NCBI RefSeq assembly: GCF_001624705.1
Contig: NZ_JSEO01000006.1
Coordinates: 244,315-308,314, forward strand
DNA length: 64,000 bases
Reading direction: 5' to 3'
DNA from: Marinomonas sp. SBI8L
GTDB lineage: Bacteria > Pseudomonadota > Gammaproteobacteria > Pseudomonadales > Marinomonadaceae
The notes under the pieces were generated by a model, which worked only from the letters and a program-made list of their open reading frames with translations, did no database searches and was not told the DNA's origin. Both the position numbers and the translations under genes were made by a program. Each line of letters starts with the position of its first letter. The first letter of the stretch is position 1. Positions 25,471 through 63,183 of the stretch are shown piece after piece.

Positions 25471-25478
25471 TTTCGTTC

Positions 25479-26555: not shown

Positions 26556-27134
26556 CTAAACGCGCTTCCAAGCTGTTAACCCGTTTTCAATGTCCCATGT
26601 TTGAGTAAAGTCAGAAAAGGCTTGTCGCTTGGCCCTAGATGTTTTCTTCGGTGTACCAATAGACAACACGCCTAAAACCTCATCTTTCTCTTTTAAATTG
26701 AGAAGATAACGTAATGCATCATCAGACTCTAGAGTATGCCAAATCCCAGCAAAACCAAGTGCATGTGCCGCCAACAATATATGTTCACAAGCCGCTGCAC
26801 CTGAAAGCTGTTGGTCCAACACTGGCACATGATGCTCTAAAGTAAGGTCAGAACACACAAAGATCATCATGGGTACTGCGGCGATCTCCTCTACAAAAGC
26901 GTCAAGATGCTCTTTTGACATACTGGCTGAGTATTTCTCTTTCACCAACATAGACAGATCTTGAATCCCCTGTCCTTGCACTAGGATAAATCGCCAGGGT
27001 TTTAAATTTCCATGATCAGGCACTGTCATCGCCGCTTGCAGTATGGTTTCAATTTGCGCCTTATCTGGCGCAGGTGCAGCAAGGTTACCACGAGCATATG
27101 AGCGACGACTCATGAGTGTATCAATAGCATCCAT
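26556..27134 (-). CDS. Nitroreductase family protein (YdjA-like)
   Basis: A 192-residue FMN-binding nitroreductase-fold protein. It has the YdjA-like opening MSRRSYARGNLAAPAPDKAQIETILQAAMTVPDHGNLKPWRFILVQG and later LAAHALGFAGIWHT and VLSIGTPKK. YdjA-type enzymes reduce nitroaromatics with NADPH; the physiological substrate is unknown. It is 37 bp after the siderophore exporter gene on the same strand and is therefore probably the last gene of the NRPS operon. A role in siderophore processing or in iron release is only a guess from position. Confidence 0.82.
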   Translation of the reverse strand: MDAIDTLMSRRSYARGNLAAPAPDKAQIETILQAAMTVPDHGNLKPWRFILVQGQGIQDLSMLVKEKYSASMSKEHLDAFVEEIAAVPMMIFVCSDLTLEHHVPVLDQQLSGAAACEHILLAAHALGFAGIWHTLESDDALRYLLNLKEKDEVLGVLSIGTPKKTSRAKRQAFSDFTQTWDIENGLTAWKRV

Positions 27135-27171
27135 TTATAACTTTCTTCCTCATAGACTTTTATACTTTTCT

Positions 27172-28887
27172 TTAAGCTGTTGCTGTTTTTTCAATTGGAG
27201 TGTGAAATAAAGAGTCCGTTTTGAGATCAAACGCACTAATACAACCTCGATCCAATCGATACACTTTATCAGCGGCATCAAAATAACGATCATCATGGCT
27301 AATAGCAATAATGGTTTTTCCTGCTGCTTTCAACTCAGGTAAAATTTCTCTGTAGAAAACATCTCGAAATACTGGATCCTGATCTGCTGCCCATTCATCC
27401 AGCAAGAGCACCTGTCTATCTTCCATATACATTAAGAGTAACGCCAAACGCTTACGTTGTCCCTGAGACAAAGAGGTCGTAGATAGCTTACCTTTCTCAA
27501 TACTCACCTTATGATCTATGGCTAAACGCTTTAAGTAGTAATCGACCCTTTCTTTAAAGTAATCATTATCATGGTTACCTGAATTTGCTTTATGTGAGCC
27601 ATCTAACACATCATCAAATAGAAAGAAGTTCGGGAAAATAGTCGAGAAACAGCTGCGATAATTGGCAACATTGCCAGAAGTAACTGGCTCTTGGTTAAAC
27701 TTAACAAGACCGTCTGTCGGCAAATACAAGCCCGTTAGTAACTTGGCTAATGTAGACTTACCACTACCATTACCTCCAACTAAAAAGATCAACTCTCCTC
27801 GATTTAGCTCTAAATTCGCTGGCCCCAAGGTAAATCCAGTTTCTTCTCCCTGACTTGGATATTGATAGCAAGCATTAACCAAGGTCAGAGACTCAAACTT
27901 AGCTTGTACGACAGGCTCCTCTACACCGCTTTCTTTTTCTACTTCTTTTTCTGTTTCTATATAAGCAGCATCAGCAAGCTTCAGTTTATCAATCGCTTTA
28001 AGGGCAACCGTTCCTCGAATTACTGAAGGAATCGCTTCAAGAATCATGGCGATGGGTGTACGTAAAAACATGGTTGTCAGTACATAACCAACCACCACAT
28101 CCTGTGTGATAGATGCCTGAGTCATGCCCAAGAAAAAGGCCAAACCAATCAAACCGAACACAAGTACTGTGGTCCAATTTAAGTTAATCGCCCACAATAG
28201 ATCCGCTTTAACAGCCGTATCCATTGCGCCTTTTGCCGCAGGTTCGAAGCGTTTATCAAATAAATGCTGACGCCTTGGTTGGCTTAAGCCCAATTCATTA
28301 CGACCCTCAATCACAGCCTCATATTGTTCAAAGAGACGTTCATCATAACGACGCACATCCGCCATCATGACCTTAGTACGCCCCACTAACTTAAAGTCAC
28401 CCCAGACTCCCAAGGCAACCAATACAAGGGTACAAAGAAACAATAAAGGCGAAAGCCAAGCCAAATAACTAATGCCTGCCAATAACAAAAGGCCATTGTA
28501 GAGTGAAATAGGTAATTGCTTGGTCGCATTAGCCACCATGGTGACATCTCGTGTTAGAACGTTATAGAGAGCGGGCCCTCCAAGCTGCTCCTGACGCTCT
28601 AATGAGGTATTTAGAATCCGCCTAACAAGTTGCAAGCGTAACTGATACACCATGCGGTGACCCAATCCGACTAATAAAGATTGAGACCAAACACCACTCA
28701 TAAACAAAATGGCGACCATAACAACATAAGCAATGACAGTATTTGTCAAAGATTCAAAGCCATGTTCCAAGGCATGATTCACACCACCAATAATCATGAC
28801 CCCTGCCACAGCACTTAAAGCACTGGCAACAATGGCCAATAACATAGTACGACGAGACTGTGCCAACAGCTGTTTAATCATCTCCAC
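27172..28887 (-). CDS. Cyclic-peptide/siderophore export ABC transporter (PvdE/SyrD type)
   Basis: A 571-residue half-transporter with the permease and ATPase fused: six N-terminal helices (about 15-300) and a nucleotide-binding domain with Walker A GGNGSGKST (about 377), signature SLSQGQRKRLALLL and Walker B LLLDEWAADQDP, a variant characteristic of the cyclic-peptide exporter subfamily (PvdE, SyrD). It would move the finished peptide across the inner membrane. The start may be the GTG at 28887 (AGGAG 8 bases upstream) or the ATG at 28881 (AAGG 5 bases upstream). It directly follows the last NRPS gene (27 bp). Confidence 0.9.
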   Translation of the reverse strand: MEMIKQLLAQSRRTMLLAIVASALSAVAGVMIIGGVNHALEHGFESLTNTVIAYVVMVAILFMSGVWSQSLLVGLGHRMVYQLRLQLVRRILNTSLERQEQLGGPALYNVLTRDVTMVANATKQLPISLYNGLLLLAGISYLAWLSPLLFLCTLVLVALGVWGDFKLVGRTKVMMADVRRYDERLFEQYEAVIEGRNELGLSQPRRQHLFDKRFEPAAKGAMDTAVKADLLWAINLNWTTVLVFGLIGLAFFLGMTQASITQDVVVGYVLTTMFLRTPIAMILEAIPSVIRGTVALKAIDKLKLADAAYIETEKEVEKESGVEEPVVQAKFESLTLVNACYQYPSQGEETGFTLGPANLELNRGELIFLVGGNGSGKSTLAKLLTGLYLPTDGLVKFNQEPVTSGNVANYRSCFSTIFPNFFLFDDVLDGSHKANSGNHDNDYFKERVDYYLKRLAIDHKVSIEKGKLSTTSLSQGQRKRLALLLMYMEDRQVLLLDEWAADQDPVFRDVFYREILPELKAAGKTIIAISHDDRYFDAADKVYRLDRGCISAFDLKTDSLFHTPIEKTATA

Positions 28888-28914
28888 CTTAAAACTCTCC
28901 TCTGTATACCAACA

Positions 28915-31900
28915 TTAGGCACTCTCTTTTTCTAAATCGTTAACAGGCTTAGTTAGCTGAATCTCATCAACTAATATCAGCAATTGCTGCGCCATTTCGT
29001 TTGAAAACAAAATACTAAAATGATCTGACAAGATATTGTTTCCTATGACTTTATCTGAAGTAAAGGCACACCATGCGTCTATTCCTGAGATATTATTATC
29101 ACTGCACCAAACCCAAAGCGGCACATTAACAACTGGAATAGCTTGTGCATAGAAGATTTTTTTCAGAACCCAGCGCTGCAACACAGTCTGATAAACCCAA
29201 TCCGTTGGTAACTCCTCTCCTAGTAACTGTTGAACATCAGGGTTATCAAGGGCTTCTTTAAGCACATGCTTATAATCAGCAGTAGCGGATGCTTTTGTTG
29301 TTAAATCATTAACTAAAAGATCGAGTTTTTTCGCATCATAATGCCCATTATGAATTGCGAGGTAGTGCTCTAAATCGGCTTTTATCTGTACAAGGTCATC
29401 ATCTTGATTATCTAAGGTTTGCAATGGGTCATAATCAATAATAGAAACAGCCTTAATATCAAACCCTTCTGCTTGTAACCTGTGGGTTAAAAGCATCATA
29501 TGACGAGCGGCTAAACTCCAACCTGCCAATACAATTTTTTCACCTTTTAGGGCCTTAAACTGCTGAACATAATCATCCATGAGGTTTTCAAAATCACTTT
29601 CCTCTGCACTTGATAACAGCTCAGGATTAGACAAGACACCGTAAATGTTGGCCTTGCCTGTTAAGTTTTCAAAAAGTGGCTCATAGTAGTTCACATGACC
29701 ACCATGGGAATGCATCACCACAATTGAAACGTCAGACTCTTCACTGCGACTTATTTCTACTAGGCGAGATTCAGAGGTCTTTTCATGACTTGATGCTTCA
29801 CTGATAAACTCAGCAAGTGCTTCAACACTTTGTTTACGAAACAGTAAATCTGTTGGGAACTCCTGAGCAAAAATTTGTCTCATACGAGCAACCACTTTAA
29901 TCGCAGCAAGGGAGTGACCACCAATATCAAAAAACTTATCTGTCACACTGATACTAGGTTGCTGCAAAATCTCTTGCCATAACTCGCAGAGTGTTTGCTC
30001 AATATCATTACGAGGTGCAACATAAGTACGAAGAGATTTTTGTCGCGCTTGCTCTAACAAATTGTGCCTATCCACTTTGCCATTCGCATTCAAAGGCAAG
30101 TATTTAACGCCAATTAACTGAGTCGGTACCATATAATCAGGCAGCTGTTCTGCCAACCAAGCTTTAAGGCTCTCTTCATCTAGAACTCCGCCCACATAAG
30201 GTACAGCAAAGGCGACTAAATGCGCTTGATCCTCCTCTCCTTGTAGTAATACTGAGCTGTGCTGGACAGTTTGATGAGATGCTAGAAGTGATTCAATTTC
30301 TTCCAACTCCAAACGAAATCCCCGAATTTTAACCTGCTGATCCGCTCTACCAAGAATATCAATACTGCCATCTGCGCGACGCATGGCAAGATCACCCGAT
30401 TGATAAAAACGTCCACCAGCAACAAAGGGGTTTGGAAGATAACGGTCCGAAGTAAGGTCAGAGGCATTCAAATAACCTCGACTTAGGTTAGACCCAGCAA
30501 TATACAGCTCACCAACTTGTCCAGATATCACAGGGGTCATTGACTGATCTAAAAGGTAAACTTGCGTATCACCCATAACCCCCCCAAGAGCAGCATCACC
30601 CGTATCTAAATCAACTTCATTCCACAATACCCCTACTGTCGTTTCGGTCGGGCCATAGTGGTTAAACAGCTTGCAGCTCATTAATTCATCATCTTGATAC
30701 GTTTTTAATTGTGACAAAAGGCCATCACTGATTCGCTCACCACCTAGTACTAAAACTTGTTTAGGTAATAAAACACTCGCATCAGAACCACTCAATAACG
30801 CTGATAGATGAGAAGGGACAATTTTCAGACAATCAAGTGGAGACTGTTCATAATACTTGGCCAAAGCGGTAGCGTCGGTACTTTCTTCACGCCCAATAAG
30901 ATGCACACATCCACCCTGTAACCAAGCAGGAAACAACATGGTATTGCCTAAATCCGCCATCAAAGAAGAAACAAGACCATAGTGCCCTTCTTTAGGTAGC
31001 TCTAATGCCCTAATCGCAGATTGACTATAGTGAAGAATATTTTCATGGGTGACTTGAACGCCTTTTGGCTTCCCTGTTGAACCAGAGGTATATAACAAAT
31101 AGGCAAGATTACTGGGTTTTAGATTCGCTAAAGTAAGCGACAATATATCAGTGAGTGCGACAGTCTCTTCATAAGGTATTTCTGTAACAAGCTGAGACCA
31201 AGCCATCACTTCACTTTCATGCCCTTCTTTGAGTAAGACATCAGCAGAGGCTTTAACTGCCTGATCTAAATTGCTCTGAGCTACATCAGATGTGACAATC
31301 ACAACGGCTTTAGCATCGTTCAAAATACTTTCGATACGTGCCTTAGCTAACTCAGGATCAATCGGCAAATACGCAGCGCCTGATTTCAACACAGCTAACA
31401 TAGCAAGAACCAGCTCAGCGCTACGAGGCAAGCACAAGGCGACAACTGTTTCTGTTTTTACTCCCACTCTTACTAAATTCGTTGCAACAAGATCACTTTG
31501 GCGATCTAAATCTGCATAACTTAATAAGCTATCCCCCTCTCTTAACGCTGGCGCATCTGGATTATGTGAGGCATGTTGACGGATGCTCTCAACTAAACCT
31601 AATGTCAGGTCATGTGCTTTATTATCAACATCATGTACATAAGAGCTAACAAGTGCGTTTTGCTCACTCTCAAGTAATGCGTTCAAGCAACCCAAAGGCT
31701 CATTTGGCGCACTCAAAGCTTGCTCCAGCATGACAGGTAATCTTTCTACTAAACGAACCATAGATAAGGCGCTGTATTTGCTCTCATCATACGTCAGAAT
31801 CCATTCACCAGCCCCACTTTCTGTGGCAACAAGCTGTAGTTGTAATGCATCCCCTTTAGGCAGGTACGCGCTAGTTTCAAGATTCCCAAGGCTAGCTTGC

Positions 31901-32982
31901 GTCACAAATTGAAAATTCACTGAATAGGCATTAACGATAGTCTCAGACACCTGTTGCACATATTCTTGATATTCAGCCTGCTCATCTAATAAAGGCTGAA
32001 AGCCCATGAGTGCTTTTTCCAAGCTCATTGCAGAGATATCGTAGAAAGGCACAGGCAGTCTCTGCTGCACCAAGCCAAAGCAATCGTCTAGCTCTTCATA
32101 ATCGTCTCGACAATCATGATAATGACTAAGTTGGAATTGCTCTCGACCACTGACTCTTTGCAATAATGCGGCCCAAGTGATTAACCCAATTGTTTGAGGT
32201 TCAACCTCCATTGTCTCAGCTTTTTGCGCTAGAAGATCTTGCATTTCCCGGGAGAAAGGCACTCGCACACTTGCTGCTTTGCTTTCTGTTTTTCCTTCAA
32301 CGCTTTTCTCTAGATTTCTGTCAAAACTGGCTAGACGTTCGTTCAGCTCAATACCAGGCAGATCCTGCCACTGAAAGCCTTTCCAGAAAGACACGGCATC
32401 CGCCGCATCTTCATCTTCTTGTAGTTCATTAATCCAGTTTGCATAATCTAAATACTGCATTTCTGGCTCAATATCCGCTTCACGATCACCTATTAGCACT
32501 TCACGAATACGCGCTGCCGTCCCTTCATCCAGCACAAGTTCTGAACCAATGAGAAGTAATCTATTTTGGCTATCTTCCCATTCTGAAGTTTGCACAAACC
32601 AAGCCAATAAATGCGGTTTCTCTGCTGCAAAAGCTTGCTCAGCTTTCACTTCGAGTTGTACTGTTTTGTCAGCCGATGCGCTCTTGTTAATGTCACCATT
32701 AATAATGCCATTATTAACATCATCATTTTGAACAAGAGACCAATTTACACGCGCCGCCTGAACCTGTTGACGCAAGACATTGAAACCCTCAGGTATACTA
32801 AAATCTGTCGTTAAAGCTTGCTGGTGTTCCACCAAGATACGAAGACGTGATTCAACCTCATCTGCGACAGCATCCCCAAGATTTAACCAGAAGCGTCTAT
32901 ATTTTGGCGACTCATCACCCTTCACTATAAGACTTTGTTGGTAAGTAAGTGCGACACCCGCTTGATTATTGTCGTAGCTCAT
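28915..32982 (-). CDS. NRPS 4: interface-like domain - A(Asp) - T - TE (release module)
   Basis: A 1355-residue protein. Residues about 1-440 are condensation-like but the catalytic motif reads SELVLDE (about 146-152) instead of HHxxxDG, so peptide-bond formation is not expected; this fits the interface domain of beta-hydroxyaspartate NRPS. The A domain follows (about 470-970; TSGSTGKPKG about 630) with hand-read code DLTKVGHVGK, one residue from the Asp code. The T domain has FFDIGGHSL (about 1018). The TE has nucleophile GWSLA (Ser about 1155), Asp in IDYDPLQ and His in LSDHFS. Its start overlaps the end of NRPS 3 by 4 bases. It should load the last Asp, present it to the hydroxylase and release the peptide, perhaps by cyclisation. 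Confidence 0.9.
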   Translation of the reverse strand: MSYDNNQAGVALTYQQSLIVKGDESPKYRRFWLNLGDAVADEVESRLRILVEHQQALTTDFSIPEGFNVLRQQVQAARVNWSLVQNDDVNNGIINGDINKSASADKTVQLEVKAEQAFAAEKPHLLAWFVQTSEWEDSQNRLLLIGSELVLDEGTAARIREVLIGDREADIEPEMQYLDYANWINELQEDEDAADAVSFWKGFQWQDLPGIELNERLASFDRNLEKSVEGKTESKAASVRVPFSREMQDLLAQKAETMEVEPQTIGLITWAALLQRVSGREQFQLSHYHDCRDDYEELDDCFGLVQQRLPVPFYDISAMSLEKALMGFQPLLDEQAEYQEYVQQVSETIVNAYSVNFQFVTQASLGNLETSAYLPKGDALQLQLVATESGAGEWILTYDESKYSALSMVRLVERLPVMLEQALSAPNEPLGCLNALLESEQNALVSSYVHDVDNKAHDLTLGLVESIRQHASHNPDAPALREGDSLLSYADLDRQSDLVATNLVRVGVKTETVVALCLPRSAELVLAMLAVLKSGAAYLPIDPELAKARIESILNDAKAVVIVTSDVAQSNLDQAVKASADVLLKEGHESEVMAWSQLVTEIPYEETVALTDILSLTLANLKPSNLAYLLYTSGSTGKPKGVQVTHENILHYSQSAIRALELPKEGHYGLVSSLMADLGNTMLFPAWLQGGCVHLIGREESTDATALAKYYEQSPLDCLKIVPSHLSALLSGSDASVLLPKQVLVLGGERISDGLLSQLKTYQDDELMSCKLFNHYGPTETTVGVLWNEVDLDTGDAALGGVMGDTQVYLLDQSMTPVISGQVGELYIAGSNLSRGYLNASDLTSDRYLPNPFVAGGRFYQSGDLAMRRADGSIDILGRADQQVKIRGFRLELEEIESLLASHQTVQHSSVLLQGEEDQAHLVAFAVPYVGGVLDEESLKAWLAEQLPDYMVPTQLIGVKYLPLNANGKVDRHNLLEQARQKSLRTYVAPRNDIEQTLCELWQEILQQPSISVTDKFFDIGGHSLAAIKVVARMRQIFAQEFPTDLLFRKQSVEALAEFISEASSHEKTSESRLVEISRSEESDVSIVVMHSHGGHVNYYEPLFENLTGKANIYGVLSNPELLSSAEESDFENLMDDYVQQFKALKGEKIVLAGWSLAARHMMLLTHRLQAEGFDIKAVSIIDYDPLQTLDNQDDDLVQIKADLEHYLAIHNGHYDAKKLDLLVNDLTTKASATADYKHVLKEALDNPDVQQLLGEELPTDWVYQTVLQRWVLKKIFYAQAIPVVNVPLWVWCSDNNISGIDAWCAFTSDKVIGNNILSDHFSILFSNEMAQQLLILVDEIQLTKPVNDLEKESA

Positions 32983-35900
32983 AATGCTTCTTCCTTAATC
33001 TGAGTTTGGGCCTCAGCATTTACCTTTTCTTCTAGCTGCTCTCTATGGTAAATATCCCCCATAGCAACGGCCATTTTACGTGTCCCTTCAAACGGGTCTC
33101 TAGCATGAGCTGCCAACATATTATCCAACATAACAACATCACCATGACGCCAATCGAAACGCACCGCATTGGCTTCGTATAACTCGCTAATTAAATCAAC
33201 GGTTGCTTGCTCTAATGGTTCACCATCTCCGTAATAAACATTGCGAGGTAAACCTTCTTCTCCTGCAACAGACAAGAAATGCTCACGAATATCGGCCTCC
33301 AAGAAGCTATAATGGTGCAACTGTATTTGATTAAAAAAGCTCATTTCACCCGTCACAGGATGGCTGATCACAGCAGGACATACCTGACTAATACGTAAAG
33401 TATCTTCTCCATACCATTCAAATTCGATATTGCCCTCACGACAAATAGCTTCAACCTGAGCGCGATCTTCTGTCTTAAAGAAATGCTGCCAACTCACATC
33501 CAAGCCACTAAAATTACGGACATATTTAAGCTGTTTTTCTTGAAGCTTCTTACGCACAGCTTCTGGTAATTTTTGGTATAGGGCACGGCAATCCACAATC
33601 GGCGTACAACCGCCTGATTCAGCCGCAATCTCACAGTAGAACCATTGTCGACGAGGCCACTTATGCTGATGAGAACTTTCGTTATGGAACATGATCATTT
33701 GATCATTTGGATAAGGTGTCGACTGATAGATTTTCTCACCCACTTCTTTCTTTGGAAGATCCCCGTATTGTCCAAATAACTCTGGGTAAATCCCCTCGCA
33801 GAAACGCTCAAACTCAACGGGTGTTGGCAAATTGAAGCCACGGAATACGATACCACCATGCACTTCTAACCATTCCATAATCAGAGCTTGGTTAGCTTGT
33901 GCCCATACATTAGGATCAAGACCTTTTTCATTGCACTCCACTAACAAAGGAAAAGGTGCGTCATCATTTAAGGGGCGAGTACTCACAAGAGGCACTTTCA
34001 CCGCTGGCGCCGCTTTGGTTTTTTTCATTTTACTAAGCTTGTTTAGCTTACGTTTTGTTGGAGATTTTGTGTCCATATTAGGGTTACCATCTGCATTTTT
34101 TGTTAAAGCACTTCGTTTTAAAGACAGAAGAGGCACATTGATGTTTTTGACAATATTCTCAAGCAAGGCGAGTAAATCACGGCCTAAACGCTCCATTGTC
34201 GACGCGTCGAAAAGTGACGTTCGATACACCCAGCGTAATGCCAGCTGCTCTCCCTTAGTCGTCGCTTCTTCACTGGCAAACAAAGCCATATCAAATTTAG
34301 AATGCTGTTGAACATTCATTCTTGGTGTGACTTGTAAATCACCTAAATCCTGTCGTGCATTAGGTGTATTTTGCATCACTAACAGCGCTTGTATTAGTGG
34401 GTGACTTCCCTGTATACGGGCAGGCTGTACCGCTTCAACAACACGATCAAATGGAATATCTTGATAGCTAAAACCTTCAAGGCAAACTTGACGAACCTGC
34501 TGTAGGTAATCTTCGAAAGATTGCATTGAATTAGGCTTCATACGCAGTGCGATTAGGTTGACGAAGAAGCCAATAATGTTCTCCGTATCGCCATGATCAC
34601 GGTTGGCAACATCTGTTCCCATTACGATATCCTGTGATCCTGTTTCTAGATGCAGTTGCGCCGTATAAGCGGCCATCAGCAGCATAAACAAGGAGCAACC
34701 TTGCTCATTCGCTAACTGATTAAGCGATGCGGTTAATGCCTCAGGAATAAGCAAATCTACCGCGCCCCCCTGGTCTCCAGCGGTTGCAGTACGAGAGCGG
34801 TCTAAAGGTAGCGCCAATTGCTCTGGCATCCCCGTCAGGTGGCGACGCCAGTAGCCTAGTCCAGCTTCTTGTTTGGCACTGACCTCTTCGCTGCCTTGCC
34901 AAGCGGCGTAATCCAAATATTGAACAGGCAAGCTTGCTAAAGCCACACTTTGGCCCTGAATAGCTTGCTGATAAGCCTCAATTAGACCATTAATCAGCAA
35001 AGCCATTGACCAACCGTCTGAGGCAATATGATGCTGCACCAGCTGTACTAACCAACGGCTTTCACTTAGTTTGTAGAGTACAAGTCGTAAAGGGCTTTCA
35101 GCAGTTAAATCAAATGGCGTATTTGATGCTTCAAGGATCAAATCACCCACTATCACTTCACGTTGAACAGGACCTTCAGCAGTCAGGTCAACAACAGAAA
35201 AAGCAGGTGTTAAATCAGAATCAACACGCTGATACCCTTCGCCATTGGCATCCGCATGGTAGGTAACGCGTAAAATTTCGTGGCGCTCTGCAACAGCATA
35301 AAGCGCTGCTTGAATTGCATCCGTATTCAGTCCATTAGTTACTGTTTTTCCTAGTTCGGCTTCTGACTTACCTTGCGGTTTGTCGTCTAATTGAAGCGCC
35401 AGCTCGACCACACTACTCATATTGAAGCTTGCATCATTTTTCTTCAGTTGTTGCATAAACCAAAGGCGACGCTGTGCATCTGATAATGGCATCTTTTCTT
35501 GACGTTGTATTAATGGGATAGACTGATCAGAAACATGATGCGAAAGCAAAGACAGGTGCTTTGCTAACTCGCTCAAAATAGGTGTTTCAAACAAAGTCTT
35601 CAGCGATACGTCATAACCTTGAGCACGTAAACGAGAACGCACCTGTGCAGCCATCAGTGAATGACCACCAAGATTGAAAAAGTGATCTTGCTTATTTACT
35701 GCCTCTAAGTTCAGTAACGCCGTCCAAATATCACTGACAATGACTTCGTATTGGGTCAAAACTTGCTCAGCTTGATCATTTAACGCTTTCTCACTTACCT
35801 CATTTAAACCAAACTGGCTTGTGGCAGAAAGCTCACGTTTCGAGAGTGCATTCCTATCCACTTTGCCACTGGCATTTAACGGCAAAGACGATAGCCATTC

Positions 35901-52726: not shown

Positions 52727-52752
52727 AGTCAGTCTTATGAGAGCTTTCGCTC

Positions 52753-55700: not shown

Positions 55701-57975
55701 GGGAAGCTAGGCTTGCCTTCTCAGACAATTGCAAACGATCCAGCACACCTGTGACATAGTGAATCAAGTTAGATTGACTGACTTCCACCCCTTTAGGTTG
55801 CCCAGTTGAGCCTGAGGTGTAAATCACATAAGCCACATCCTTTTCACCCGGAAGCTGACTTTGAGCCAAAGCGTCTGTTTGCGAAAGATCGCCCCTCTCT
55901 TGAGAAGAAAGAGTCGATTCAGAAGAGAACGTAGACTGATTTACCCAAAGACACGCTTCTGGCAACCAACTTGGAGTCTCTGTATTTTCTAGGCTTTCAG
56001 TTTTTTCTAGGCTTTCTGTTTTTTCTGAGCTCTCAAAAGCACCTTCATCATGGCCCACCACAAGCACTAACTCTGCATCTTGGCAGATAAACTGCAATCG
56101 GCTATCAGGCCACTTGTGATCCATCGCTACATAGGTCGCTCCTAAACGCCAACAAGCCAACATAGCAACGATCTGCTCAACACTTCGCTCTAAACAGATA
56201 CCAACACGTTTACCGGAGTTAACCCCTTTTTGCTGCAAGAACACAGCAACAAGATCGACCTTTTGCATCAAGTCAGCATAACTCAGGGACTGACTTTCAT
56301 TTTTTAGAGCAATATTATCTGGCTGTGTTTGAGCAATGTTTGCAAATGCATTCCATGCTGTGTCTGTCACTGGCGCAAGTGTTTCACCAATTAATACCGA
56401 AGCCGTCTCTGCGCTTGCTAAATCCAAAGATGCCAAAGGTTGTGACACATTTTTCAGCAGCTGATTGATAAAATGGATAAAGCTATCACGAATACTTTCA
56501 ACGGTTTCACGGCGATATAAACTATTGTTGTAACGCCATTTGCCAAGAAAACCGGTGCGATTATCGACAACGACTAAGTTCAAATCATGGGCAGCACCAC
56601 GCTGCTCCGCTAGCAGCTCAGCTTCCACGATGCCTTGCATACCTGCTTCTGGTCTCTCGTGGTTTAGAGTAAACATATGCTGGAAAACAGGTGATCGACC
56701 CGCTTCACGCTTCACGTCTAACTTTTCGATCAAGGCAGAAAATGGGTATCCTTGATGCCTCATTACCTGCTGTGTTTGTTCATCAACTTGCGCGACCCAA
56801 GCATCAAAACCCTGAAGTAAATCAGGTCGACACCTTAGGGCTAATGGGTTAACCAAATACCCGACTAGTCGAGCATCTTCTGAGGACAATCGACCAGAAC
56901 TTGGGGTACCAATAATAAAATCATCTTGGCCAGATAAACGCCCCATAAACCATTGAAACGCAGACATAAACCAAACATAAGGCGTCACTTCCAATTGACG
57001 ACATTGCTGTCGTAATTGCGCCCCTTGAGATTTAGTCAAATTAAATTGAATCTCTTCCCCGTCTGAGCCTGTTTTAGCACTGTGCGGGAAGTCTGTTGGT
57101 AAATTAAGTTGCGGCAAGTCGGCCAATTGCGCTAGCCAAAATTGCTCTGTCGCTTCCCCTGTTAATACGCTTTGTTGCTGCTTGGCACACCAATCACGAT
57201 AACTTGTGCTTTCAACAGGCTGAGCGTCCAGTTTATCAATGTTTTGGCCACCTAATAATTGCAGAAGCTCCTGGCGCAAGACTTCAAATGACATGAAGTC
57301 AGCCGCGATATGGTGAATCACCATAGTTAAGTAAAGATGTTGCTCGTCACCTAGGGTATTGGCCAGTAACGCACCACGACACACCTGCCCCTCATCCAAC
57401 TTCAAAGCCTTGTCCGCTTCACGGGAAACACAGCCATTAATTTGCTTTTGGTTAGCATTATTTAGCGACAGTACAGACAGGCTATGACTGCTCTCTATAC
57501 CGTCTATACCCTGCTGGCTATCTGACGTTGCCAACCATTGAACAGGGTCTCCATCTCGCTCCCCATAAGCACTACGCAAAATAGGATGACGTTTTAATAA
57601 TTCAACAAAGGCTTGTTGAACTGCGTCAAGGGTTACACAGCTATTCAGCTTAATTGCGTAAGCCATGTTATAAGCAGAGCTCTCAGGCGCCATGCGATAT
57701 AAGAACCAAAGGGATTTCTCATTAAGCCCTAAAGGTCTTGGTGCAAAATAATCTGACTGCTGAGTTAGCGCCTCAATAATAAGCGCTTTATTAGTCCGTA
57801 TTTGAGCAAGCAGAGCTTGATCCATCACACCTTTTGCAGCTTTAAAGGTTAACTTACCTTGGTTTAGCGTTAAGGTGACGCCTTTTAACCAACACTCTCT
57901 AAGTAGTGGAAGGACGGTTTGAGTACTGCTTGTCTGAGGGCTATTTTTTTTAGCGCTGTTTATTTGAGAAACCAT
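52753..57975 (-). CDS. NRPS 1: TubC docking - C - A(Asp) - T - T - E (first module)
   Basis: A 1740-residue protein. Residues about 20-75 (LLRECWLKGVTLTLNQGKLTFKAAKG) look like a TubC-type N-terminal docking domain, expected to meet the acyl-ACP of the FAAL. The C domain has HHIAADF (about 221), unusual in ending DF instead of DG. The A domain (TSGSTGQPKG about 722, NHYGPTETT about 860) has code DLTKIGHIGK, identical to the Asp code. Two T domains follow, GGDSILGLQI (about 1114) and GGDSILSLQI (about 1188), about 75% alike, evidently a recent duplication. The E domain has HHLIMDAVS (about 1391). It should attach the fatty acid to Asp and epimerise it to D. Confidence 0.92.
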   Translation of the reverse strand: MVSQINSAKKNSPQTSSTQTVLPLLRECWLKGVTLTLNQGKLTFKAAKGVMDQALLAQIRTNKALIIEALTQQSDYFAPRPLGLNEKSLWFLYRMAPESSAYNMAYAIKLNSCVTLDAVQQAFVELLKRHPILRSAYGERDGDPVQWLATSDSQQGIDGIESSHSLSVLSLNNANQKQINGCVSREADKALKLDEGQVCRGALLANTLGDEQHLYLTMVIHHIAADFMSFEVLRQELLQLLGGQNIDKLDAQPVESTSYRDWCAKQQQSVLTGEATEQFWLAQLADLPQLNLPTDFPHSAKTGSDGEEIQFNLTKSQGAQLRQQCRQLEVTPYVWFMSAFQWFMGRLSGQDDFIIGTPSSGRLSSEDARLVGYLVNPLALRCRPDLLQGFDAWVAQVDEQTQQVMRHQGYPFSALIEKLDVKREAGRSPVFQHMFTLNHERPEAGMQGIVEAELLAEQRGAAHDLNLVVVDNRTGFLGKWRYNNSLYRRETVESIRDSFIHFINQLLKNVSQPLASLDLASAETASVLIGETLAPVTDTAWNAFANIAQTQPDNIALKNESQSLSYADLMQKVDLVAVFLQQKGVNSGKRVGICLERSVEQIVAMLACWRLGATYVAMDHKWPDSRLQFICQDAELVLVVGHDEGAFESSEKTESLEKTESLENTETPSWLPEACLWVNQSTFSSESTLSSQERGDLSQTDALAQSQLPGEKDVAYVIYTSGSTGQPKGVEVSQSNLIHYVTGVLDRLQLSEKASLASLASNGADLGYTAIYGALLSGRTLRLLAEDLAFDAEALAEELAESPVDCLKIVPSHLNGILLATARSEWLPSEALILGGEAISPELVAKVSVRKKTMSIFNHYGPTETTIGVVAKKLDLFSEGVALGRPLANVETRVVDACGRVAPQGFAGELEVSGPTLANGYLGQTELTKERFHQIDGKSWYRTGDRVKQVGEALYFIGRSDFQIKIRGYRVEPGEVEAWLKQHLDDAVVLNVPDERQNNRLVTYIVTDEEEGKASSINEKLDSLKANMLSELPDYMVPAVWIPLESLPLLGNGKLDRKGLPDADAYIEKANLVESNVSESTSLTPTEGALLTIWQTLLGKPALTIHDNFFANGGDSILGLQIIAKAKKEDITLTPKAIFEHQTVAELALVAKTPEKPENKLEKALLEIAKDVLGKPNLTAKDNFFAVGGDSILSLQIIAKAKAAGIALTPKQVFEHQTMAELALAAQEANTAKASSNKAETSSKEIVLPSEPFALTPIQAWFFEQQSETPQESLSHWNQSLLLDASIDLDLVALRAAALKLVERHPSLRLAFSKGSEQSLEVWQQIYQPIESNWGERLVQEYDGEDVNAGDVNSPVLASLQSDFKLDQAPLVKFVWLSKSKQLLCAAHHLIMDAVSWQVLLQDLHAYYKAALTNQSDALSASDVARFDQWQDFLAERAIQLDVEAATAYWTSQIQTELPQVDANNTYQNSQQLSLSLSQELTQKLLGDANVAYKTRVQELLLTALAKVLGQWQQLPDVTIELEGHGRESGDSDLDLSTSIGWFTSRFPQKLSAVVDWESALIHNKEQLRRLPEKGLEYGLLRYLSLSGYGTDTGSQEAAAKPSFKQTFNERSHSFVSFNYLGQQDGLAGDSPFSLSTPLCPGMKAATALRPHVLDINAVILSGELHLEWTYPASNQQENSENSHDLYACVPDIAENYMNELVLLIEHCCHPNTGRATAVDFPDADITDAEFIDLLAELEA
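55985..56038. repeat. 3 x 18-bp tandem repeat inside NRPS 1, A domain
   Basis: Three consecutive 18-bp units (55985, 56003, 56021), the first two differing at one base, encode EKTESL/EKTESL/ENTET-like repeats in the linker shortly before the TSGSTG motif. Confidence 0.7.
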
Positions 57976-57977
57976 GA

Positions 57978-60122
57978 TTAAATCTCTCCCTCAAGCAGGC
58001 ATTCGTCTTCATTTACATCTAGATCCACTTCCTGAGATTTGGAGATAACTGAAGTCGATGCAAGGTATGCTGCCAACGCCTTGGTGGTCGGGTATTGCCA
58101 AATTAATTCCGCTGATAGATCAAGATTAAGGCGCAGAGAAAGCTCGTGAGTTAATGTCATTGAATCAACCGAATCAAGCCCTGTTCCAGCTAGCTTTTGC
58201 TCCGGATTCACATCATCAATAGCAACCTGCAAACGCTGTGCGATCCAATAACACATCCAGTGAGAAATCGATTCTGCATCACCTGATTTCAGTTCAGGTT
58301 CATCAGACACCTTCTCTTTATGAGTGTTTTCTGCTTCGCCATCTTTCTGCCATTGCGCTACCGCATTTAAGGCACCTTGTTCGTACAAATCGCGGTTTTT
58401 AAGGCGCTGAATTTTACCCGATGTCGTTTTTGCCAATGACACAGGTTTAATTAACACCACCACCGACAGGCTAATTTCATACTCTTCAGCAACCGCTTGG
58501 CGAATGCTTAGAATAGTTTCTTCATAGTTTTTGCTACGCATGCCTTGGCGAGTGACTTCTTGTACCAAGACAACTTGATTATCTGTTGTTTGGAACACGG
58601 CCCCACCATGTGGCGCTAGACCTTCATCAACCGCCTGTACGCTTGCTTCAATATCTTGAGGATAAAGATTTCGACCATTCACTATGACAACTTCTTTTGC
58701 ACGACCACTGACATAAAGCCAGCCATCTAAAATGAAGCCAAGATCACCTGAACGTAAATAGCCTCCGTTATTTTCAGCAACATCTTTGGTAGTTTGTGGA
58801 TCACAAAGTACTTCATTATTGAATACCTCGGCATTCACTTCAGGCTTATTCCAATAACCTTGTGCTACGCTACCACCGCGAATCCAAATCTCCCCCACCC
58901 TGTCATCTGCAAGTACTTGCTTAGTTTCAGGGTCAACAATGCAAACAGACATTTGGTCATTCAAACGACCAGAAGAAGGCACAGACACCAGCTCATCCAA
59001 CAAGGCATCATCATTTGAGTGAGTAACATTTGCTCTTACCAGCTTACCTTTTTGCAGCTCGGCCTTATCAAGCTGAACACTTCGACTCGGCTGATCACTG
59101 GCCGTAGTAGTGACAAACAAGCAGGTCTCTGCCATGCCATAACAAGGTTTTAGTGTATTTGCAGACAGTCCACATTCAGCAAAAGCTTGGTTGAACTTTT
59201 CCAAAGTCGCTGTATGAATTGGCTCAGCACCATTTGCTGCAAAACGCCAATGACTTAAATCTAGTGCCTGTTTTTGCTCTTCACTGACTCGTGCAACACA
59301 ATGCTCATAGATAAAGTTCGGCCCACCACTCACAGCCGCTTTATAATCAGAAATGGCCTTAAGCCAAAGGAATGGTGCTTGCAAAACAACAGGTGGGAGC
59401 AGTAACCATACAGAGGTACCAGCACATATAGGCGCCAAGACACCACCTACAAACCCCATATCATGGTACATAGGTAACCAAGTCACGACATTTGCGCTCT
59501 CAGTTATTGAGAACTCTTGCACAATTAAAGCCGTATTGTGTATTAAATTACCGTGCCCCAGCATCACGCCTTTTGGCGAACCGGTTGAACCTGAGCTGTA
59601 TTGTAGGTAAGCCACACTATCAGCATGAATGTTTGGCATGACCCATTGTTCTGCTGAGGTAATTATCTCTTCACCCACAACAAATTGCTGACAACTTTGA
59701 TCACTATCTACCAACCAAGCTTTCACCTGATCTTGATGTTCAGCACTACAAAGCGCGAGGCTTGCATCTGAATCTTTCAAAATACTACTCAAACGACCCC
59801 AATCACGACGACGTTGTTGCGGCGCATAGGCAGTTACCGCAATAAGCCCAGCATATATACAGCCAAAAAAGCCCACTATATAGTCGATACCATTTGGCAT
59901 TAACAACATAGCTCGATCGCCCGGGTCAGAAAACGCCCTCAACTCAACCGCCATGGCACGCGCACGCGTACTTAACTCGGCATAACTAATCGTTTCAGCG
60001 ACATCAGAACCATTCGCCAGCAAGGTAAAACAAGTTTTATTACCATTAGAAGCTACTTGGTGCTCCAACAGTTCGATAAGATTTGAATAAGAAGGGGTAT
60101 CAATCAGATAATCCTGACCCAT
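57978..60122 (-). CDS. Fatty acyl-AMP ligase fused to acyl carrier protein (lipoinitiation)
   Basis: A 714-residue protein. The ligase part (about 1-580) has the nucleotide loop SSGSTGSPKGV (about 179), the FAAL-type LPMYHDMGFVGG, NGAEPIHTATLEKF and CYGMAETCLF, and a C-terminal lid with SGRAKEVVIVNGRNLYPQDIE. A FAAL-style insertion between the two parts explains why it makes acyl-AMP rather than acyl-CoA. The last 90 residues are an ACP with phosphopantetheine Ser in GTGLDSVDSM (about 650). It activates a fatty acid and loads its own ACP, starting the lipopeptide. It is 2 bp from NRPS 1, so translation is probably coupled. Confidence 0.92.
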   Translation of the reverse strand: MGQDYLIDTPSYSNLIELLEHQVASNGNKTCFTLLANGSDVAETISYAELSTRARAMAVELRAFSDPGDRAMLLMPNGIDYIVGFFGCIYAGLIAVTAYAPQQRRRDWGRLSSILKDSDASLALCSAEHQDQVKAWLVDSDQSCQQFVVGEEIITSAEQWVMPNIHADSVAYLQYSSGSTGSPKGVMLGHGNLIHNTALIVQEFSITESANVVTWLPMYHDMGFVGGVLAPICAGTSVWLLLPPVVLQAPFLWLKAISDYKAAVSGGPNFIYEHCVARVSEEQKQALDLSHWRFAANGAEPIHTATLEKFNQAFAECGLSANTLKPCYGMAETCLFVTTTASDQPSRSVQLDKAELQKGKLVRANVTHSNDDALLDELVSVPSSGRLNDQMSVCIVDPETKQVLADDRVGEIWIRGGSVAQGYWNKPEVNAEVFNNEVLCDPQTTKDVAENNGGYLRSGDLGFILDGWLYVSGRAKEVVIVNGRNLYPQDIEASVQAVDEGLAPHGGAVFQTTDNQVVLVQEVTRQGMRSKNYEETILSIRQAVAEEYEISLSVVVLIKPVSLAKTTSGKIQRLKNRDLYEQGALNAVAQWQKDGEAENTHKEKVSDEPELKSGDAESISHWMCYWIAQRLQVAIDDVNPEQKLAGTGLDSVDSMTLTHELSLRLNLDLSAELIWQYPTTKALAAYLASTSVISKSQEVDLDVNEDECLLEGEI

Positions 60123-60236
60123 GAAAACTCTCCTACGACCTCATCTCTTTTAGAGGTCGCTTTAAAATGACGTTAGTGCCCTGACAATTTGGACTTTAAA
60201 AACTTAGATTTCGGATGAAATTCGCTGCCTACTGGG

Positions 60237-61220
60237 TTATTGATTTGACTCAGCCATAGCCACAACCACTTTGCGCTCACCTTTAAAGGTGCCTCGCGCG
60301 TGAGCCGCTAGCATGTTATCCAGCATCATGATGTCGCCTTCTTCCCACAAGAATTTCACTTCACAGTCGTCCATTACTTGGCGCACATGGTCTAGATCTT
60401 TTTCATCAATGGCAGTGCCATCACCGTAATAAACATTACGAGGCAGGTTCTCTTCACCAACGATAGAAATTAAGGTTTCACGTACATGAGGTTGTAAATT
60501 AGATACGTGGAAAAGGTGTGCTTGGTTAAACCAAACTTTCTCACCTGTTCTTGGGTGAGCAATAGTGGCTTGGCAGATTTGACGAGTACGCAACTCATCA
60601 TCGTTTAACCATTCAAATTCAATCTGATTTTCTCTACAGAAGGATTCAACTTGCGCCTTGCTTTCCGTGTTGAAGGCTTTTTCCCATGGCAAGTCCAGAC
60701 CATTACCATAATTGCGAACATACATGAGCTTCTTTTGCTCAAAGCGAGCGCGAATGTCTGGATCAATTAAATTATAAATTTGTCGACTATCGGCAATCGG
60801 TGTTTCACCACCTTCTTCTGCCACTTTCAACGAACAGAACCAAATCCTCATTGGCCAACTTAAGGTATAAGCTTGTTCATTATGCAAAGGGATCACTTGG
60901 TGAGCTGGGTATTCTGTTGATGTATAAACCTTACCTTCCACATTACTGCGAGGTGTCGAGGCATAGTCGTAACTTAAAAGTTCTTCACCAAAGGATTTCG
61001 CAAACTCTTGAAAATCTTTTTCATCAGAAACTTTGAATCCGCGTAATAGAACGCCGCCCACTTTTTCTAACTGAGTGTCGATCACTTCTTTAATATCGGC
61101 AAAACAAGCACGCCAGTTCACTTCTGCTTTAGGTTCAATTACAAGCGGCAAGAGACCTTGACCTTCCAACTGACGAGTAGACACACTGCTCTCAACAATT
61201 TCTTCTTTCTGAATTAGCAT
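60237..61220 (-). CDS. Stand-alone TauD/SyrP-like aspartyl beta-hydroxylase (T-type)
   Basis: A 327-residue Fe(II)/2-oxoglutarate dioxygenase starting MLIQKEE at 61220; GTAGGG lies 7 bases upstream. The in-frame codon at 61223 is TTG. Iron ligands are HNE (about 113-115, in IPLHNEQAY) and a distal His in AAHARGTF (about 309), with Arg317 or Arg in KGERK for 2-oxoglutarate. Motifs NLPRNVYYGDG and MMLDNMLAAHAR are shared with the fused domain of NRPS 3, so both are of one family. Stand-alone members are known in other siderophore clusters to hydroxylate carrier-bound Asp. It is the first gene of the minus-strand operon, 114 bp before the FAAL, behind a Fur-like box. Confidence 0.9.
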   Translation of the reverse strand: MLIQKEEIVESSVSTRQLEGQGLLPLVIEPKAEVNWRACFADIKEVIDTQLEKVGGVLLRGFKVSDEKDFQEFAKSFGEELLSYDYASTPRSNVEGKVYTSTEYPAHQVIPLHNEQAYTLSWPMRIWFCSLKVAEEGGETPIADSRQIYNLIDPDIRARFEQKKLMYVRNYGNGLDLPWEKAFNTESKAQVESFCRENQIEFEWLNDDELRTRQICQATIAHPRTGEKVWFNQAHLFHVSNLQPHVRETLISIVGEENLPRNVYYGDGTAIDEKDLDHVRQVMDDCEVKFLWEEGDIMMLDNMLAAHARGTFKGERKVVVAMAESNQ

Positions 61221-61343
61221 CAAAAAACCCTACAAATCTAAAAAAAATTTTCACAAACACTTCAGCTACTTTGCTATGTACCAGCATATAAGTGGATATT
61301 AGGAGGCGATCATACACAATTTATGCAAAAAACAGAATAAGAT

Positions 61344-61358
61344 TGATTATTATTTGCA
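61344..61358. promoter_or_regulatory. Fur-like box between hydroxylase and mbtH
   Basis: TGATTAT-T-ATTTGCA matches the 7-1-7 Fur consensus at 11 of 14 positions. It lies in the 227-bp divergent region, 124 bp from the hydroxylase start and 90 bp from mbtH, and could repress both biosynthetic transcripts under iron sufficiency. Confidence 0.5.
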
Positions 61359-61447
61359 TTTAAATTATAAACTACACCCTCAATATCATTTACAAAAAGC
61401 ATCATTTAAAAATACTCAATTTGATGGATCAGAATACGGAGAAAAAC

Positions 61448-61654
61448 ATGAGTCTTGATAATCCAAACACCACATTCAGTGTCGTCGTTAACAATGAAGA
61501 GCAATATTCAATATGGCCTGAATACAAAGACATTCCTGCTGGATGGAACCAGGCTGGAAAACAAGGAAACAAGGAAGAGTGTCTAAGTTGGATTAAAGAA
61601 AATTGGACAGATATGCGCCCTAAAAGCCTTCAGGATGCCATGGCTAATCAATAA
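61448..61654 (+). CDS. MbtH-like protein
   Basis: From the ATG at 61448 the protein has 68 residues. This start is preferred over 61421 because GGAG lies 6 bases before it and the family begins just there. The core shows [24 protein letters not shown], a conserved Cys in [10 protein letters not shown] and the ending DMRPKSL, with the three Trp residues of the family. MbtH-like proteins bind A domains and help them fold or react. It is in a short rightward operon with the diaminobutyrate aminotransferase. Confidence 0.92.
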
Positions 61655-61734
61655 GTTAAAAACTGGTTAAATAGCCTTTGCACTCAGTTAGAGCAAAATA
61701 TTTCTAAGTGTATTTTTTATAGTTTGGAGTCACA

Positions 61735-63183
61735 GTGAATTACACCAATAGCGAGATCGTCGTACCAAAGCACGATCAAACGATGTTATCGATCAAGGGT
61801 TCGAATAAAGAGCCATTAAATTTAAATACATTTTTAGAGCAACCTACCCGCGCTCTAGAATCGACTATTCACTTAGAGAATCAAGAAAATAGGGAATCAA
61901 ACGCACGCAGTTATCCTCGACGCATCCCTTTAGCGCTAACAAGAGGCCAAGGCATATTTTTACAAGACACTGAACAACAAGTCTTTATTGACGGTTTAGC
62001 AGCTGCCGGAACACTCGCATTAGGTCATAGCCATCCTGAGATTGCTGAAACCATTACGCAAACCCTGAATAGTGGCGTTCCTCTTCAAACTTTGGATATC
62101 ACCACGCCTGTTAAAGAAGAGTTTATCGACTCACTGTTTCAGCTACTTCCAACTAACATGGCAAAACAAGCGCGCGTGCAATTTTGTAGCCCATGCGGAG
62201 CCGATGCTGTAGAAGCAGCCATCAAGCTTGCCAAGACAGTAACAGGGCGAAATACCATTCTTGCTTTTTCCGGTGCTTATCACGGCATGACCCAAGGCAC
62301 CCTTTCCATTATGGGTAACCTAGGCCCTAAATCTGCGATTGGCGCCATAGTGCCCGATGTACAGTTTATGCCTTACCCTTATGCACCACGCTGCCCTTAT
62401 GGTCTTGGTGAAGACGGGGTAAAAGCCAGCTTAAATCAGCTTGAAACCATGCTGACCGATCCAGAATCTGGCGTACTAAAACCTGCTGCAATCATACTTG
62501 AAGCGGTGCAAGGTGAAGCCGGCGCTATTCCTGCAGATAACGAATGGCTAAAAGGCCTTAGAAGACTCACTCAAAAGCATGGCATTTTACTCATAGTTGA
62601 TGAGGTGCAAGCAGGCATGGGAAGAACGGGCGAAATTTTTGCCTTTGAGCACGCCTGCATTGAGCCTGACATTATCGTATTATCAAAAGCAATTGGCGGC
62701 GGTCTGCCAATGGCGGTCATCGTCTATAAGAGTGAAATTGACCTTTGGAAACCAGGCGCACACGCAGGAACCTTTAGAGGTAACCAACTTGCCCTCGCAA
62801 GTGGCCGTGTTGTAATGCGCCACCTTCTAGAAGAAAACCTTCACCTGCATGCAAGAGACATGGGCGCTAGACTCAAAACCCATTTAGCCAAGATCAAGAG
62901 CCCGCTTGTGGGTAATGTTCGCGGTCGTGGACTCATGCTTGGGGTCGAGATAGTTAACCCACTTGCAGAAAAAGATGGCCTTGGGCAACACCCTGTAGAT
63001 GGCGAACGCGCTAGAGCAATACAACAAGAAGCCCTCAAGTTAGGCTTAATCGTCGAACTCGGCGGCCGCTTTGGCTCAACTATTCGCCTACTTCCGCCGC
63101 TTATCATTAAAGAGGAAGAAGTCGATACGATTGCAGAAAGGCTAGCTGAGGCAATTGATATCGTTACACTTAAAACCACCTGA
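61735..63183 (+). CDS. Diaminobutyrate-2-oxoglutarate aminotransferase (PvdH/EctB type)
   Basis: A 482-residue class III PLP aminotransferase. It starts at a GTG at 61735 with GGAG 5 bases before it. Features are YPRRIPLALTRGQGIFLQDTEQQVFIDGLAAAGTLALGH, the PLP-phosphate loop CSPCGADAVEAAIKLA, AFSGAYHGMTQGTL, VDEVQAGMGRTG, and the Schiff-base Lys in LSKAIGGGLPMA (about 318). The GTLALGH and SGAYHGMTQGTLSIMGN pieces are typical of diaminobutyrate aminotransferases, which make L-2,4-diaminobutyrate from aspartate semialdehyde. There are no ectA or ectC genes, so it serves the NRPS, not ectoine. The 50-residue N-terminal extension is long. Confidence 0.85.
   Translation: MNYTNSEIVVPKHDQTMLSIKGSNKEPLNLNTFLEQPTRALESTIHLENQENRESNARSYPRRIPLALTRGQGIFLQDTEQQVFIDGLAAAGTLALGHSHPEIAETITQTLNSGVPLQTLDITTPVKEEFIDSLFQLLPTNMAKQARVQFCSPCGADAVEAAIKLAKTVTGRNTILAFSGAYHGMTQGTLSIMGNLGPKSAIGAIVPDVQFMPYPYAPRCPYGLGEDGVKASLNQLETMLTDPESGVLKPAAIILEAVQGEAGAIPADNEWLKGLRRLTQKHGILLIVDEVQAGMGRTGEIFAFEHACIEPDIIVLSKAIGGGLPMAVIVYKSEIDLWKPGAHAGTFRGNQLALASGRVVMRHLLEENLHLHARDMGARLKTHLAKIKSPLVGNVRGRGLMLGVEIVNPLAEKDGLGQHPVDGERARAIQQEALKLGLIVELGGRFGSTIRLLPPLIIKEEEVDTIAERLAEAIDIVTLKTT

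Follow-up and report, generated by a model that had tools for sequence, protein, structure and literature searches.

A Marinomonas gene cluster predicted to make an acylated peptide siderophore with three beta-hydroxyaspartates

The stretch of Marinomonas sp. SBI8L DNA analyzed here (64,000 nucleotides, hereafter the window) ends where its contig ends. At 26556-63183 lies a complete locus with a FAAL-ACP and four NRPS genes, as the original prediction had described it, and both ORFs and domain profiles agreed with that description. Pfam and cluster-built profiles yielded the NRPS domain orders listed in Table 1. Downstream of the FAAL-ACP they comprise seven A domains, seven C domains with HHxxxD, one E domain and one motif-less C-family domain, matching the seven canonical C and seven A domains counted previously. 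The E domain of NRPS 1 retains intact EGHGRE and FNYLG motifs, the nucleophile motif of the NRPS 4 TE is GWSLA, and the FAAL-ACP matched NCBIfam FAAL models at scores under their equivalog cut-offs. The two aspartyl hydroxylases noted earlier were recovered by Pfam as TauD-type enzymes, one stand-alone and one fused. The MbtH gene, the tandem carriers of Asp modules 1 and 5, the interface-type domain, the PvdE-like exporter, the nitroreductase and the receptor and importer genes (19141-25385) had been absent from that description.

Table 1. Features of the locus and adjoining genes (positions in the window)
Feature	Positions	Strand	Evidence
Ferric-siderophore ABC importer: ATPase, two FecCD permeases, binding protein	19141..22975	-	
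TonB-dependent siderophore receptor	23058..25385	-	TIGR01783 305 bits, cut-off 223.5
Fur-box-like site between receptor and thioesterase	25451..25469	.	15/19 matches
Type II thioesterase	25670..26416	+	PF00975 E 8.4e-39
Nitroreductase-family protein	26556..27134	-	PF00881
PvdE-like cyclic peptide export ABC transporter	27172..28887	-	TIGR01194 381 bits, cut-off 286
NRPS 4: HH-less C-family domain-A(Asp)-T(GGHSL)-TE	28915..32982	-	domain profiles, A code
Interface-type domain, condensation family without HHxxxDG	31693..32982	-	PF00668 57.6 bits
NRPS 3: C-A(Asp)-T-T-C-A(Gly-like)-T-C-TauD	32979..42671	-	domain profiles, A codes
Fused C-terminal hydroxylase domain of NRPS 3, IbetaH_Asp-like	33042..33962	-	PF02668 E 6.2e-44
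NRPS 2: C-A(Dab)-T-C-A(X)-T-C-A(Gly-like)-T	42686..52726	-	domain profiles, A codes
NRPS 1: TubC dock-C-A(Asp)-T-T-E	52753..57975	-	both T GGDSI; domain profiles, A code
FAAL-ACP, predicted fatty acid loading	57978..60122	-	PF00501, PF23024, PF00550
Stand-alone TauD-type Asp beta-hydroxylase, TbetaH_Asp-like	60237..61223	-	PF02668 E 1.9e-46; 0.992 clade with Tistrella MobD
MbtH-like NRPS accessory protein	61448..61654	+	PF03621 E 1.2e-23
Diaminobutyrate--2-oxoglutarate transaminase, predicted Dab supply	61735..63183	+	NF005393 688 bits, cut-off 671

Fur-like sites with at least 15 of 19 matches did not occur in five order-1 Markov controls; the number with at least 14 was not above chance, and the best site at the operon itself reached only 13/19. 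No Rfam match attained its gathering score within 23000-64000. Searches of solved structures returned two distant matches for the stand-alone hydroxylase and none at E ≤ 0.1 for the interface-type domain.

Ten-residue codes were re-extracted from the A domains (A1-A4, DLTKIGHIGK, DIWELTADDK, DIVQIGGVYK and DILQIGAIWK; A5-A7, DLTKIGHVGK, DILQLGVVWK and DLTKVGHVGK) and agreed with the assignments read by hand before, which we take to be Asp-Dab-X-Gly-Asp-Gly-Asp, that is, three Asp, one Dab, two Gly-like residues and one unassigned. The last code, DLTKVGHVGK, is tabulated for beta-hydroxyaspartate (OHAsp) in PMC10391617. Residue 4 has a Gly-like code in the window, whereas ten relatives have DMPQLGAVWK or DMSQLGAVWK at this place. 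The A3 domain, for residue X, shares 28-40% identity with the cluster's six other A domains, and none of six code strings, the window's own included, was found in the literature searched.

Every Asp module of the locus bears a published hydroxylation signature, as judged from sequence. In modules 1 and 5 the carriers are tandem and all four have GGDSI; module 5, on NRPS 3, is without an E domain. A stand-alone TbetaH_Asp acting with a GGDSI carrier is described as giving L-erythro OHAsp (PMC10391617), and the stand-alone hydroxylase of the locus fell in the TbetaH clade with Tistrella MobD, hydroxylase subtypes being assigned here by tree only. Across the 14 parsed clusters with a strong interface-domain match, GGDSI was present in 55/55 carriers of modules 1 and 5, and GGHSL in all 70 others. 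Among carriers directly before a C domain in 17 parsed sets (six rows without an A code left out), GGDSI occurred in 9/10 Asp modules versus 1/20 other modules (p = 6.7e-6), and, without three Marinomonas relatives, in 6/7 versus 1/11 (p = 0.0025). A single carrier at Asp1 in four sets (G744, L097, L098 and G018) indicates that tandem carriers are not essential. Two hydroxylases would be enough for three OHAsp if the stand-alone enzyme serves two modules, as the carrier types suggest; its expected targets are Asp1 and Asp5.

The Asp7 module comes after the fused hydroxylase and the interface-type domain. Reitz reportedly defined the interface domain in 2019 as a C-family domain that has lost its catalytic motif and stands before an Asp A domain, and the motif-less C-family domain of NRPS 4 occupies this position. 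It grouped with the HH-less domains of cyanochelin B and Kamptonema (support 0.97), two other HH-less domains (L030 and L095 15295) being placed elsewhere in the tree, and the C-terminally fused hydroxylase formed a clade with its cyanochelin B counterpart (support 1.0). Placement of the C domain after Asp5 on the L side was weakly supported (0.507, 0.321), and six C domains that follow a carrier without E also fell in the D-type clade. The elements of the antiSMASH rule for beta-OHAsp NRP metallophores, as quoted in PMC12971057, are all present: Condensation and AMP-binding domains and an Asp beta-hydroxylase, its subtype taken from the tree. Siderophore transport genes adjoin the cluster, and the Orn/Lys N-hydroxylase that would mark a mixed OHAsp/hydroxamate lipopeptide is absent from it.

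All 14 clusters that were parsed and had a strong interface-domain match shared one module order, with Asp at the same places; four come from Marinomonas, one from a genome in a second family and nine from a third. Assembly lines of the weaker relatives G018 and G252 differ. The nitroreductase-family gene adjoins 2/13 related clusters. Receptor matches in nine clusters of the G233 type had only 23-25% identity. Nine genes compared with Marinomonas sp. MED121 gave dN/dS values of 0.03-0.15; in the comparison with G020, synonymous sites were saturated. A class-wide sample of 369 genomes contained three matches at 1e-20, one from the genome itself and two that were weak, at 133.5 and 78.5 bits, and the known spread thus lies within the order.

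The corrugatin group (ornicorrugatin and histicorrugatin) is likewise acylated and has alpha-hydroxycarboxylate-type residues, but uses OHHis besides OHAsp. We assign to this group the G252 locus, which has A codes for His, Dab and Asp as well as fused hydroxylases and HH-less domains. Cyanochelin B (Leptolyngbya sp. NIES-3755 plasmid AP017310; PMC12628792) shares acylation, the succession of fused hydroxylase, HH-less domain and Asp module, a stand-alone hydroxylase, and a peptide that, as described, is without hydroxamate or catechol. By contrast, it has two OHAsp, a PKS/thiazoline part and an ethanolamine end, and its stand-alone enzyme belongs to another clade and acts before an HH-less domain. 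In the same account, the module that follows the fused enzyme bears L-threo OHAsp. Potashchelins and cupriachelin (PMC7100376, PMC10484230) are lipopeptides for which one stand-alone and one fused hydroxylase are described as giving different OHAsp isomers; potashchelin also shares the order FAAL-ACP-C-TauD-C-A(Asp), and cupriachelin contains Dab. Both differ in having two OHAsp, together with cyclic hydroxyornithine in potashchelin and ornithine in cupriachelin. Lactuchelin (Pseudomonas lactucae; PMC12904278) is acylated with seven residues and OHAsp at positions 1 and 7, but has two OHAsp, is Ser-rich and carries an Orn and hydroxybutyrate bridge. The MobD/MobH system of tistrellabactin (PMC10391617) combines a stand-alone TbetaH_Asp, an Asp module and a GGDSI carrier to give L-erythro OHAsp, but its product is a mixed-ligand siderophore with one OHAsp, graminine and hydroxamate.

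Domain order, A codes, the two hydroxylase types, the E and interface-type domains and the transport genes were read from the sequence, and the chemistry that follows is predicted throughout. We consider it probable (about 0.77) that the locus makes, exports and retrieves an N-acylated heptapeptide siderophore of the form acyl-OHAsp-Dab-X-Gly-OHAsp-Gly-OHAsp, in which three OHAsp would provide three bidentate iron ligands. The FAAL would load a fatty acid, which the starter C would join to Asp1, and in modules 1 and 5 the stand-alone TbetaH_Asp would hydroxylate Asp attached to the tandem GGDSI carriers (3R centre). The enzyme fused to NRPS 3 would act on the interface-type domain of NRPS 4. 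The TE would then free the chain, linear or cyclised, for export by the ABC protein, and the receptor and FecCD importer would take the iron complex back up, probably under Fur control. The signatures of the Asp modules and the module order kept in 14 clusters strengthen the three-OHAsp acyl heptapeptide originally proposed.

Each OHAsp probably has a configuration of its own, giving three different diastereomers. GGDSI carriers, the stand-alone enzyme and the E domain would yield D-threo at residue 1; the same combination without E would leave residue 5 L-erythro; and at residue 7 the fused enzyme, acting with the interface domain, would give L-threo. Counting against this scheme, a bokeelamide Asp module that includes an E domain is described as giving L-erythro rather than D-threo, and a tistrellabactin module with a GGDSI-type carrier, an E domain and an Asn-type code bears unhydroxylated D-Asn/Asp (PMC10391617). 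In PMC7100376 the pairing of enzyme and isomer in the abstract and results is opposite to that in the introduction. No siderophore with three OHAsp was found in the literature searched, which covered part of the field. We put at even odds the broader proposal of a conserved, undescribed family in at least three bacterial families, binding iron by three OHAsp alone with D-threo, L-erythro and L-threo set module by module.

A siderophore in which only two Asp are hydroxylated, residue 1 or 5 staying Asp and other groups filling the last two ligand positions, appears unlikely. For cyanochelin B, which has two OHAsp, the published account proposes that other groups complete the ligand set, and a GGDSI-type carrier is also described as serving E domains, so that its presence in module 1 is not necessarily a sign of hydroxylation. 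An epimerase role, however, leaves unexplained GGDSI in module 5, which is without E in 14/14 clusters, and the module 1 starter C groups with those of four relatives having a stand-alone hydroxylase gene directly upstream. A lipopeptide with a non-siderophore role, such as an antibiotic, is far less probable: OHAsp lipopeptides of this kind exist, turnercyclamycin being a false positive of the PMC12971057 profiles, but FecCD permeases, an importer ATPase and a receptor match were found in 12/13 relatives' fetched stretches and a PvdE-like exporter in 13/13, a Fur-like site precedes the receptor, and both hydroxylases form clades with siderophore enzymes.

Hydroxamate or catechol supplied by genes elsewhere, entering at module 3 or as a cap, would fit the unassigned code of X, and the genome does hold three Lys/Orn N-hydroxylase family matches and two DHB-AMP-ligase matches above 500 bits; all lie on other contigs, in agreement with the original prediction that the window has no ornithine hydroxylase or catechol genes. 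Yet the genome's N-hydroxylase adjoins DHB-ligase-like and NRPS genes of its own, and the A3 code is unlike the hydroxamate-type codes DGEGSGGVTK and DGEDHGTVTK seen in L097 and L098 next to N-hydroxylase genes. Moreover, 6/16 genomes with a strong interface domain, including MED121 (96% complete assembly), gave no Orn/Lys N-hydroxylase match at E ≤ 1e-20, and in the others the gene was on a different contig or at a distance of at least about 68 kb. These N-hydroxylase and DHB-ligase searches (for catechol, in the genome itself only) make a mixed ligand unlikely, and we regard it as the least probable of these readings. The genome also contains no IucA/IucC-type siderophore synthetase (PF04183).

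If the three-OHAsp reading is correct, a peptide siderophore would draw its whole iron-binding set from one residue type and have three potentially photoreactive sites. Cyanochelin B, with its two OHAsp, has been reported to undergo light cleavage with release of Fe(II) to neighbours (PMC12628792), and light could similarly cut this chelator, freeing Fe(II) for neighbours. Product analysis in MED121 would be clean, since no Orn/Lys N-hydroxylase was found in that assembly. Three configurations of one amino acid in one molecule, each predicted from its own module, would put the published rules of OHAsp stereochemistry to a stringent test.

The window takes up the final 64 kb of its contig (308,314 bases) in a 5.19-Mb draft genome. 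On the minus strand it encodes, in order, a stand-alone TauD-type hydroxylase, FAAL-ACP, NRPS 1 to 4, a PvdE-like exporter and a nitroreductase; MbtH and a Dab aminotransferase (score above the curated cut-off) are divergent from the NRPS operon, and a type II thioesterase, a TonB siderophore receptor and a FecCD importer lie past the nitroreductase. Pfam and profiles made from the cluster's own domains gave concordant domain orders. Together with the A-domain codes, extracted at GrsA-anchored positions, these orders confirmed the complete locus of the original prediction. Among named relatives, Marinomonas sp. MED121 has the closest stand-alone hydroxylase (93%), and dN/dS against that strain was 0.03-0.15 across nine genes. 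An additional large NRPS cluster in the window's own genome (L102, L103) carries two A codes, DITQLGLVYK and DITQIGLVYK, similar to that of module 3.

A-domain codes with the residues we take them to specify, and coordinates of features discussed in the text
Feature	Position	A code	Presumed residue
Module 1		DLTKIGHIGK	Asp
Module 2		DIWELTADDK	Dab
Module 3		DIVQIGGVYK	
Module 4		DILQIGAIWK	Gly-like
Module 5		DLTKIGHVGK	Asp
Module 6		DILQLGVVWK	Gly-like
Module 7		DLTKVGHVGK	Asp
NRPS 4 TE	window 28915-29724		
Second Fur-like site	window 63688-63706		
A-less module, L096	NZ_CP154268.1 13421-19696		
A-less module, G018	C8 about 20674-27348		
DHB-AMP ligase, own genome	C1 381038-382624		
L105, L106, own genome	C12 200000-235000		
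L102, L103, own genome	C12 387000-414000		

The carriers of Asp modules 1 and 5 are paired, and all four are GGDSI. Module 7 has a GGHSL carrier, is preceded by an HH-less C-family domain and lies downstream of the hydroxylase fused to NRPS 3; its A code is tabulated for beta-hydroxyaspartate (OHAsp) in PMC10391617. We analyzed carriers directly before a C domain and with a readable A code in 17 parsed sets (six code-less rows dropped). GGDSI was present in 9 of 10 Asp modules versus 1 of 20 others (p = 6.7e-6), and in 6/7 versus 1/11 (p = 0.0025) after removal of three Marinomonas relatives. The sole Asp exception, a carrier in comparison locus L030, comes after an HH-less domain, which is what the scheme would lead one to expect.

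In a C-family tree of 115 entries (one domain present twice), the HH-less domain of NRPS 4 clustered with its cyanochelin B and Kamptonema counterparts (0.97). A further two HH-less domains were placed elsewhere. The first C domain of NRPS 2, downstream of the NRPS 1 E domain, fell in a clade rich in post-E C domains that includes six C domains directly after a carrier, and the C domain after Asp5 lay on the opposite side with weak support. A TauD tree grouped the fused domain with that of cyanochelin B (support 1.0) and the stand-alone enzyme with Tistrella MobD and others (0.992), a clade outside which the cyanochelin B stand-alone enzyme lies. By the features tested, the locus belongs among the beta-OHAsp NRP siderophores and should operate as they do, joining TbetaH_Asp and IbetaH_Asp logic. 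In loci L096 (Vibrio harveyi plasmid), L097, L098 and that of Marinomonas G018, the first Asp module is followed by a C domain that was placed among post-E C domains, though no E intervenes. The siderophore-type L096 and G018 loci also have an A-less module (C, GGDSI carrier or carriers, E), which may obtain Asp from another A domain, since its C domain clusters with that of the window Asp5 module (0.996).

Stand-alone TbetaH_Asp with a GGDSI carrier is described as giving L-erythro OHAsp (PMC10391617), and the beta carbon as S from fused and R from stand-alone enzymes (PMC12628792, citing Reitz 2019). The potashchelin abstract and results assign L-threo to fused and L-erythro to stand-alone enzymes; the introduction of the same paper gives the opposite pairing (PMC7100376). 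The NRPS 1 E domain retains its HHxxxD, EGHGRE and FNYLG motifs. The inferred configurations are D-threo for residue 1, L-erythro for residue 5 and L-threo for residue 7. Two descriptions count against this assignment: bokeelamide has an E domain, yet its OHAsp is L-erythro (PMC11574851), and the tistrellabactin Asn-type module with E yields unhydroxylated D-Asn/Asp (PMC10391617).

No Orn/Lys N-hydroxylase was found at E<=1e-20 in six of 16 genomes (G036, G233, G421, G428, G744 and G355); in the other ten, it was on a different contig or at least about 68 kb from the cluster. The own genome has one (400.9 bits) on contig C12, in another siderophore-like locus (L105, L106) that also holds a DHB-AMP-ligase-like gene and NRPS genes with HH-less C-family domains. 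On C1, a DHB-AMP ligase exceeds its curated cut-off (725.1 versus 723.55 bits), marking a possible catechol siderophore locus.

The stand-alone enzyme was matched in 27 of 49 genus genomes (own included), mostly distantly. The own genome, G036 (MED121), G020 and G001 combine it at 67-100% identity with the fused enzyme, encoded in a long NRPS frame, and have identical module order; G018 (61%) has a different assembly line. Order-wide, 28 of 390 genomes matched the interface domain (E<=0.001). Among the three best others, which we parsed, G355 and G233 have the window module order and G252 is corrugatin-like. Judging by the size of the genus and the corrugatin-like locus, G233 probably belongs to Pseudomonas. 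In that genus a six-sequence profile hit 135/398 genomes at 1e-20, just 12 reaching at least 368 bits (next, 168.9); nine were parsed (G709, G780 and G530 left out), all nine with the window module order. All 14 parsed clusters with a strong interface-domain match have Asp at 1, 5 and 7, Dab at 2 and DILQLGVVWK at 6. At position 3, ten share DIVQIGGVYK and four have a variant. At position 4, ten have DMPQLGAVWK or DMSQLGAVWK, three have a DILQ-type code, and the remaining one, G020, has DMLQVGAVWK. Module 1 and 5 carriers were GGDSI (55/55) and the remainder GGHSL (70/70), G744 having one carrier only at module 1. Nine clusters have GWSLA as the nucleophile motif of the NRPS 4 TE; the other five have GWCLA, with Cys.

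Around the clusters of 13 relatives, we found the exporter in 13, FecCD permeases and importer ATPase in 12 each, a receptor match in 12 (23-88% identity), the binding protein in 11, Dab aminotransferase and MbtH in five each, FAAL in four (Marinomonas and G355), type II thioesterase in three and nitroreductase in two. FAAL was not found in nine G233-type stretches; because the fetched stretches were limited, absences are no proof. A Fur-like site precedes the receptor (15/19), and the one upstream of the operon scores only 13/19. A second 15/19 site lies close to the contig end.

Compared with known compounds, as far as their descriptions go, the window locus differs in that hydroxylation signatures mark three Asp modules and no other known ligand genes accompany them. 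The analysis supports the three-OHAsp siderophore originally proposed as the predicted product (probability roughly 0.77); that its residues would also be three different diastereomers is about an even bet. Our search of open-licence papers found no three-OHAsp siderophore. PMC12971057 counts 1093 metallophore regions that resemble none of the references, and this family may be among such entries without having been named.
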